Source of the DNA: Bacillota bacterium
Lineage (GTDB): Bacteria; Bacillota; Bacilli; Alicyclobacillales; SLC66
Assembly: GCA_026627345.1 (NCBI GenBank)
Contig: JAPNUP010000039.1
Coordinates: 1-45,027 of the forward strand
Length of the DNA stretch: 45,027 nucleotides
Direction: 5' to 3'
Both the position numbers and the translations under genes were made by a program. Shown in pieces: positions 6,766 through 7,119 of this stretch (the stretch's first letter is position 1; each line of letters begins with the position of its first letter). Under the pieces are notes generated by a model. The model was not told where the DNA came from, made no database searches, and was given only the letters and a program-made list of their open reading frames with translations.

Positions 6766-7098
6766 CTACTCTGTGATGCGACTCTCTTCCTTAGAGAGGT
6801 TCTGCGCCGTGATGTCGTAATGAGAGGTGTGAAACACCACTTGGCCCTTTTTGACCAAAATCATCTGTGGCGACGCGTGACGAACCTTAAGCTTTTCGGC
6901 CAGAGACAATGACAGTGGCCGCGATTCGATCACGAGTACTTTGAGAATCGGCAACTTCGCCGTCTGTGCAAACCGGCTCACCTCCTGGTGAGCATGCGCG
7001 CTGACTGGTCAGGTCGAACTGTGTTTGAAGAGCCAGTACGTATCCTCTGCGTCCGTTACAGCCTGTTGCCACTGCTCCTGCGACGAAACATCAATCAT
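6766..7098 (-). CDS. ytxJ: YtxJ/BrxC-type bacilliredoxin with in-frame TGA at the catalytic Cys; predicted selenoprotein
   Basis: YtxJ (BrxC) is a small thioredoxin-fold monothiol bacilliredoxin thought to remove bacillithiol from protein cysteines, using the Cys of a T-C-P-[IV]-S motif. From ATG 7098 (AAAGGAG eight bases upstream) the frame reads WLFKHSST, then TGA (7011-7009, codon 30), then PVSAHAHQEVSRF. It continues in the same frame to TAG at 6766, giving 110 residues if TGA is decoded. The rest is intact family sequence: VLVIESRPLSLSLAEKL, VRHASPQMILVKKGQ, FHTSHYDIT. TGA thus stands exactly where the catalytic Cys belongs, and a hairpin fitting a bacterial SECIS follows. The alternative is a single nonsense mutation (TGC or TGT to TGA) or a base-call error. 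The nearest upstream gene is closed by a terminator, and no promoter is visible between that terminator and this start. Confidence 0.8.
6976..7011 (-). promoter_or_regulatory. Candidate bacterial SECIS element after the TGA codon
   Basis: In the mRNA the TGA (7011-7009) is followed by 15 bases and then a perfect 7-bp stem GCUCACC/GGUGAGC (6993-6987 with 6982-6976) closed by the loop AGGA (6986-6983). The apical loop begins 22 bases after UGA. Bacterial SECIS elements, as I know them, are stem-loops a few tens of bases or less downstream of UGA, with a small loop that has G in its first two positions; this hairpin fits. The loop and 3' arm also contain AGGAGG, a Shine-Dalgarno-like string, so SelB binding is a prediction only. 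Confidence 0.65.
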
Positions 7099-7119
7099 GA
7101 TAAACACTCCTTTCATGCC

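Follow-up and report, generated by a model that had tools for sequence, protein, structure and literature searches.

A predicted selenocysteine form of the monothiol bacilliredoxin BrxC (YtxJ) in Bacillota

We identified a gene in the window (the whole 45,027-nucleotide stretch of DNA analysed here, contig JAPNUP010000039.1 of the Bacillota assembly GCA_026627345.1) that very probably encodes a selenocysteine (Sec) form of the monothiol bacilliredoxin BrxC (YtxJ), a reading reached from sequence without protein, selenium or read data. Directly observed are an in-frame TGA and its position, the Sec machinery of the host, a hairpin whose stem covaries, purifying selection 3' of the TGA and orthology with Cys forms.

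The predicted gene lies on the minus strand at 6766..7098 and encodes 110 amino acids between an ATG start and a TAG stop, with a ribosome-binding site, AAAGGAG, 5' of the ATG (7107..7113, minus strand; TTTTGGCATGAAAGGAGTGTTTATC-ATG). Its neighbours, both kept in the host family, are a convergent gene for a Na+/H+ exchanger family protein (PF00999; 5515..6729, plus strand) and, upstream, one for a G5/3D-domain cell-wall protein (PF06725, PF07501; 7206..8417, minus strand). The sole internal stop among the 110 codons is TGA at codon 30 (7009..7011, minus strand), predicted to be selenocysteine in the context S-T-U-P-V-S at the invariant catalytic Cys position. The initial annotation had placed a TGA at exactly this catalytic codon, and translation and the alignment column both bear it out: Cys or TGA occupies the column of residue 30 in 28 of 28 relatives. 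Where the family has TCPIS the window protein has T-U-P-V-S, so that position and context agree and Cys is replaced by predicted Sec; the family-defining residues KHS-T-C/U-P-x-S, SPQ and SH are retained in the alignment. Profile searches supported family membership, with 98 bits against TIGR04019 YtxJ (cut-off 77.25) and 98.1 bits against PF11009 BrxC (cut-off 24.2). None of 13 TGA proteins, the window protein included, has any Cys besides the residue-30 site. The AlphaFold model of the window protein (mean pLDDT 96.3) puts residue 30 immediately before helix 31-44 of the thioredoxin fold, and the attacking Cys of this fold usually lies just before that helix. By sequence search the nearest solved structure is the "putative oxidoreductase" 3iv4 (E 4.7e-14), of thioredoxin fold, which is also the best PDB fold match to the model (TM 0.85). 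A mechanical scan of the window returned about 20 open frames with one in-frame TGA. A lone in-frame TGA is not rare per se; what is non-random here is the catalytic position and the recurrence of TGA there in 14 genomes.

These 14 genomes, mostly MAGs, form three separated groups, namely eight genomes of the host family, Alicyclobacillus mengziensis and five Symbiobacteria-like genomes. BrxC is present in 32 of the 61 near genomes and missing from the other 29. Within the host family, which includes Ferroacidibacillus organovorans, the TGA form occurs in eight of 14 BrxC-bearing genomes (G000, G001, G003, G005, G007, G012, G013 and G016, of which G005 is strain SLC66, L093), and the other six carry Cys forms only. 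A. mengziensis S30H14, from the next family, has TGA at the brxC catalytic codon on a finished chromosome. Scanning 84,980 species genomes with a sequence pattern brought in four further TGA MAGs (L091, L094, L098, L102), and a search around one of the scan-derived MAGs led to a fifth TGA genome, G428. Other matches from the scan, in genomes (L092, L099, L101) and viral contigs (L103, L104), were dismissed as chance, having no BrxC in frame and, for the most part, multiple stops; no phage copy of a TGA brxC was found in the scan, viral contigs included. A sample of 399 genomes of the class yielded no internal stop among the matches listed, which extend to an E of about 1e-32 and are stronger than host-family scores. 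The initial annotation had proposed to look for TGA or TGC/TGT at this codon in relatives, which is what alignment and genome searches show, and had named decaying copies with further stops as a refutation; none was seen among the relatives, nor any copy with a frameshift. A brxC with an in-frame TGA in one other genome (L005, G057:C1:2439818-2440126) was rejected as a further Sec form, the TGA standing at a Trp-type position in a genome where searches found neither selA nor selB. Of two paralogues, one has probably undergone a true nonsense mutation there, judged from the sequence, and the case is a useful control, showing a stray TGA where both selA and selB are missing.

The host assembly (2.76 Mb) contains tRNA-Sec, selA, selB and selD, all four of the genes for which the initial annotation had proposed a search. 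The tRNA-Sec gene (selC), with a UCA anticodon, is at C98:1463-1555 (Infernal 53.2 bits against a gathering threshold of 47; also called by ARAGORN), selA is on the same contig at C98:28595-29950 (587.9 bits), and selB scored 388.8 bits in a profile search. The selD gene (G000:C152:29951-30877, minus strand; L061:1952-2881; 333 bits) is likewise interrupted by an in-frame TGA, within the motif SCAG-U-AAK, and is predicted to encode a Sec SelD, UxxK being a known Sec site of SelD whose motif is listed in PMC9312934. A short hairpin, GGTCC-GGG-GGACC, follows the selD TGA. Given the Sec machinery and the predicted Sec SelD, recoding of UGA is to be expected in this host independently of brxC. Across the TGA genomes selA was over cut-off in 13 of 13 tested and selB was found at E<=1e-80 in 11 of 13 (G428 was outside both tests); at that threshold selB was not found in G001, which is 88% complete, or in G420, though both have selA. 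Cys-form relatives also carry selA and selB, so the machinery is necessary for a Sec form and not diagnostic of one.

A SECIS-like hairpin, GCTCACC-AGGA-GGTGAGC, follows the brxC TGA (6976..6993, minus strand). The initial annotation had described a perfect hairpin of SECIS type beginning 15 nt past the TGA, and this held up in each respect: a stem of seven perfect pairs carries an AGGA loop, starts 15 nt after the TGA and leaves 22 nt between TGA and loop. The bSECIS model calls for a loop of 3-9 nt, a stem of 4-16 bp, a G in the first two loop positions, a distance of 16-37 nt from the UGA and an MFE <= -7.5 (PMC13188914), and the window hairpin meets it with -17.4 kcal/mol over 42 nt. It stands out against synonymous-codon shuffles (p=0.0015). 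Its 54-nt fold (-21.2 kcal/mol, z -1.95) is alone only modestly unusual; the SECIS evidence rests mainly on the comparative test. Stems at or below -4 kcal/mol in the bSECIS geometry were present in 13 of 13 distinct TGA genes as against 7 of 61 Cys genes (Fisher p=7e-10, a nominal value, as related genes are not independent), and all 13 distinct TGA genes tested had an MFE below -7.5 over 42 nt. To discount what the encoded protein itself dictates, each gene was given 2000 synonymous-codon redraws, with one gene per clade combined; the combined p was 4e-6 for the TGA genes, and for the Cys genes 0.97 in the host family and 0.86 in the Symbiobacteria-like group. For the Symbiobacteria-like TGA genes alone the redraw test is weak (p 0.10-0.28), the amino-acid sequence there nearly imposing the hairpin.

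Covariation was assessed in the host family on eight rows aligned by their loops, two of which are one gene with different ends. Six of seven stem pairs have double compensatory changes, 92.9% of cells are paired as against 28-55% when the partner is slid by 1-3 columns, and the score was reached by none of 500 shuffles. One example pairs a His to Tyr change in the left arm (CAC to TAC) with a synonymous change in the right arm (GTG to GTA). In G005 and G012 the hairpin lies 3 nt farther downstream, with a compensatory change of its own, GGTC..GACC versus GATC..GATC.

The coding sequence 3' of the TGA has dN/dS of 0.11-0.43 in five pairs of TGA genes, which argues that this part is translated and constrained. 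In most host-family genomes with readable flanks, the Sec and Cys forms of brxC lie between the same Na+/H+ exchanger and 3D-domain genes, and thus in this family the two forms are orthologues in which the residue has been exchanged in place. A tree of 75 proteins requires eight Sec/Cys changes, at least five of them forced by well-supported branches; it rests on few columns, was built without the C20 mixture, and the direction of change was not inferred from it.

BrxC is a small redox enzyme with which bacteria, by way of the thiol bacillithiol, repair oxidative damage. In its Cys form it carries the motif TCPIS and acts as a monothiol transferase, stripping bacillithiol from proteins in a cycle completed by BSH and Bdr (PMC8301015, PMC10950700). 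The host has bshC, for bacillithiol synthesis (399 bits, over cut-off); of 13 TGA genomes, 12 have a bshC match over cut-off, and the match in G419 is partial. The proposed bacillithiol link of Sec BrxC, made with no thiol measurement, rests on its membership of the BrxC family and on the presence of bshC in these genomes. Profile searches found no canonical Bdr/YpdA over cut-off in the host, in any host-family genome or in the Alicyclobacillus-type genomes searched; only G060, G419 and G420 had one. In two Symbiobacteria-like genomes with Sec BrxC, selA and bshC share a contig and are about 1.1 kb apart (G420:C67:16094-20192, G419:C212:14579-17449), which may point to a link between genes for selenium and for bacillithiol.

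If the Sec form works as Cys BrxC does, its most likely function would be de-bacillithiolation with Sec as the nucleophile. SelB with Sec-tRNA(Sec) would read the codon-30 UGA, aided by the downstream hairpin, to give a 110-residue thioredoxin-fold protein whose sole redox residue would be a selenol at the start of the first active-site helix. The selenolate would then attack the mixed disulfide of bacillithiol and client, releasing the client thiol, and the resulting selenenyl-sulfide with bacillithiol would be resolved by a second thiol or a reductase. The usual reasons for the use of selenium are a lower pKa and resistance to over-oxidation; here selenium might keep the residue ionised and nucleophilic in a mildly acidic cytoplasm, or help it to resist over-oxidation. 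Sec insertion, the de-bacillithiolation activity and any advantage of selenium are all inferred.

Could the gene simply be a pseudogene, in which a chance nonsense mutation has struck the catalytic Cys codon? It takes one base change to turn TGC or TGT into TGA, brxC is not carried by all relatives (missing from 29 of 61), and the Trp-position TGA of G057 shows that true stray TGAs do occur. Such a history is nevertheless very improbable, for TGA stands at the same codon in 14 genomes with no other internal stop, the sequence 3' of it is under purifying selection, selA is present in all 13 TGA genomes tested whereas G057 has neither selA nor selB, and the hairpin accompanies the TGA forms (13/13 against 7/61 Cys genes). 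Error in assembly or sequencing at codon 30 deserves almost no credence even in the absence of read evidence there, since 14 genomes assembled independently, one of them (A. mengziensis) to a finished chromosome, all share TGA at that codon. Sec machinery in a genome is, to be sure, no proof of its use at codon 30, and the UGA might be read through without Sec, by a suppressor tRNA inserting Trp or Cys or by a general reassignment. General reassignment is contradicted by the brxC genes of G007, G013, G016 and A. mengziensis, which use TGA as their normal stop, and read-through of either kind has to contend with a hairpin whose geometry agrees with the bSECIS model and with a codon that is catalytic and otherwise always Cys; we see only a very slight chance of it.

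A weightier question is whether the protein, while a selenoprotein, is mainly something other than a bacilliredoxin, namely a peroxidase or reductase paired with a different thiol. No Bdr/YpdA can be recognised in the host family, and selenium often favours peroxidase chemistry, which we count for this possibility. A BrxC relative, AbxC of Deinococcus, moreover acts as a BSH-dependent peroxidase (PMC8301015). Against this, KHS-T-C/U-P-x-S, SPQ and SH are all retained, TIGR04019 is matched over cut-off and bshC occurs in the same genomes; and because orthologues exchange Sec and Cys at the same locus, the same task can be argued for both forms. We consider another main function unlikely, without being able to set it aside, and retain the reading of a Sec bacilliredoxin.

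Set beside known proteins, Sec BrxC resembles Cys BrxC/YtxJ (TIGR04019, PF11009, formerly DUF2847) in length, in the thioredoxin fold, in the motifs KHSxT-C/U-PxS, SPQ and SH, in having one redox residue and in co-occurring with bacillithiol synthesis, as judged from bshC; it differs in the predicted Sec (UGA with a SECIS-like hairpin) in place of Cys, and in a host family without canonical Bdr. The B. subtilis BrxC is the subject of Gaballa et al. 2021, as cited in PMC8301015. Like the Sec glutaredoxins and thioredoxins (PF00462, PF00085; PMC13188914), Sec BrxC would be a thioredoxin-fold thiol transferase in which Sec attacks, but theirs is a UxxC motif with a second Cys, whereas Sec BrxC has UPxS, no Cys and membership of a bacillithiol family. 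It shares the UxxS spacing and the single Sec of the Sec peroxiredoxin-like protein (cd02970) and arsenate reductase (TIGR00014) in Table 1 of PMC13188914, and belongs to a different family from either. AbxC, the atypical bacilliredoxin of Deinococcus (NF053651, PMC8301015), is likewise bacillithiol-linked and has a BrxC domain, but carries a TCHKT motif, a C-terminal colicin-immunity-like extension and Cys; the window protein scored 43.2 bits against NF053651, below the cut-off of 340.

Sec forms of Cys oxidoreductases are a well-known kind of selenoprotein. Neither the 2022 catalogue of prokaryotic selenoproteins (87 families) nor that of 2026 (119 families) lists BrxC, however, and a search of NCBIfam release 20 returned no selenoprotein model for the BrxC family. 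We found no literature linking a selenoprotein with YtxJ or DUF2847, subscription papers and some preprints lying outside the search, and the literature on selenocysteine and bacilliredoxin together, as far as its text was available, gave no sign that a Sec bacilliredoxin has been described. The initial annotation had known of no described example, and neither this literature nor the two catalogues offered one. That Sec BrxC is a new selenoprotein family is, as far as we could find, well supported by the genomic evidence, again with no protein or selenium data. The fuller picture is also likely in our judgement: an unlisted selenoprotein family with at least five Sec/Cys exchanges, in place in the host family, which joins selenium to bacillithiol and, in a host family without a canonical Bdr, depends on another recycling reductase.

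If this is true, Sec BrxC has, as far as we could find, no predecessor among selenoproteins in the bacillithiol system. Having a single redox residue, BrxC in its Sec form offers a test of what selenium contributes to thiol transfer without a resolving Cys, and the closely related Sec and Cys orthologues at one locus, together with the Sec and Cys sister genes of Alicyclobacillus, are natural pairs for kinetic comparison. It is probable, judged from the sequence alone, that annotation treats Sec brxC genes as pseudogenes or truncated genes, and they add a marker of UGA recoding in use in these Bacillota. One host-family genome, G003, has two brxC copies, one with TGA (L054) and one with TGC (L025), which are about 95% identical and have the same neighbour; they may reflect a gene duplication or a MAG that mixes two strains. 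In the TGC copy the stem of the hairpin is retained and the loop G is lost (AGGT to ATGT).
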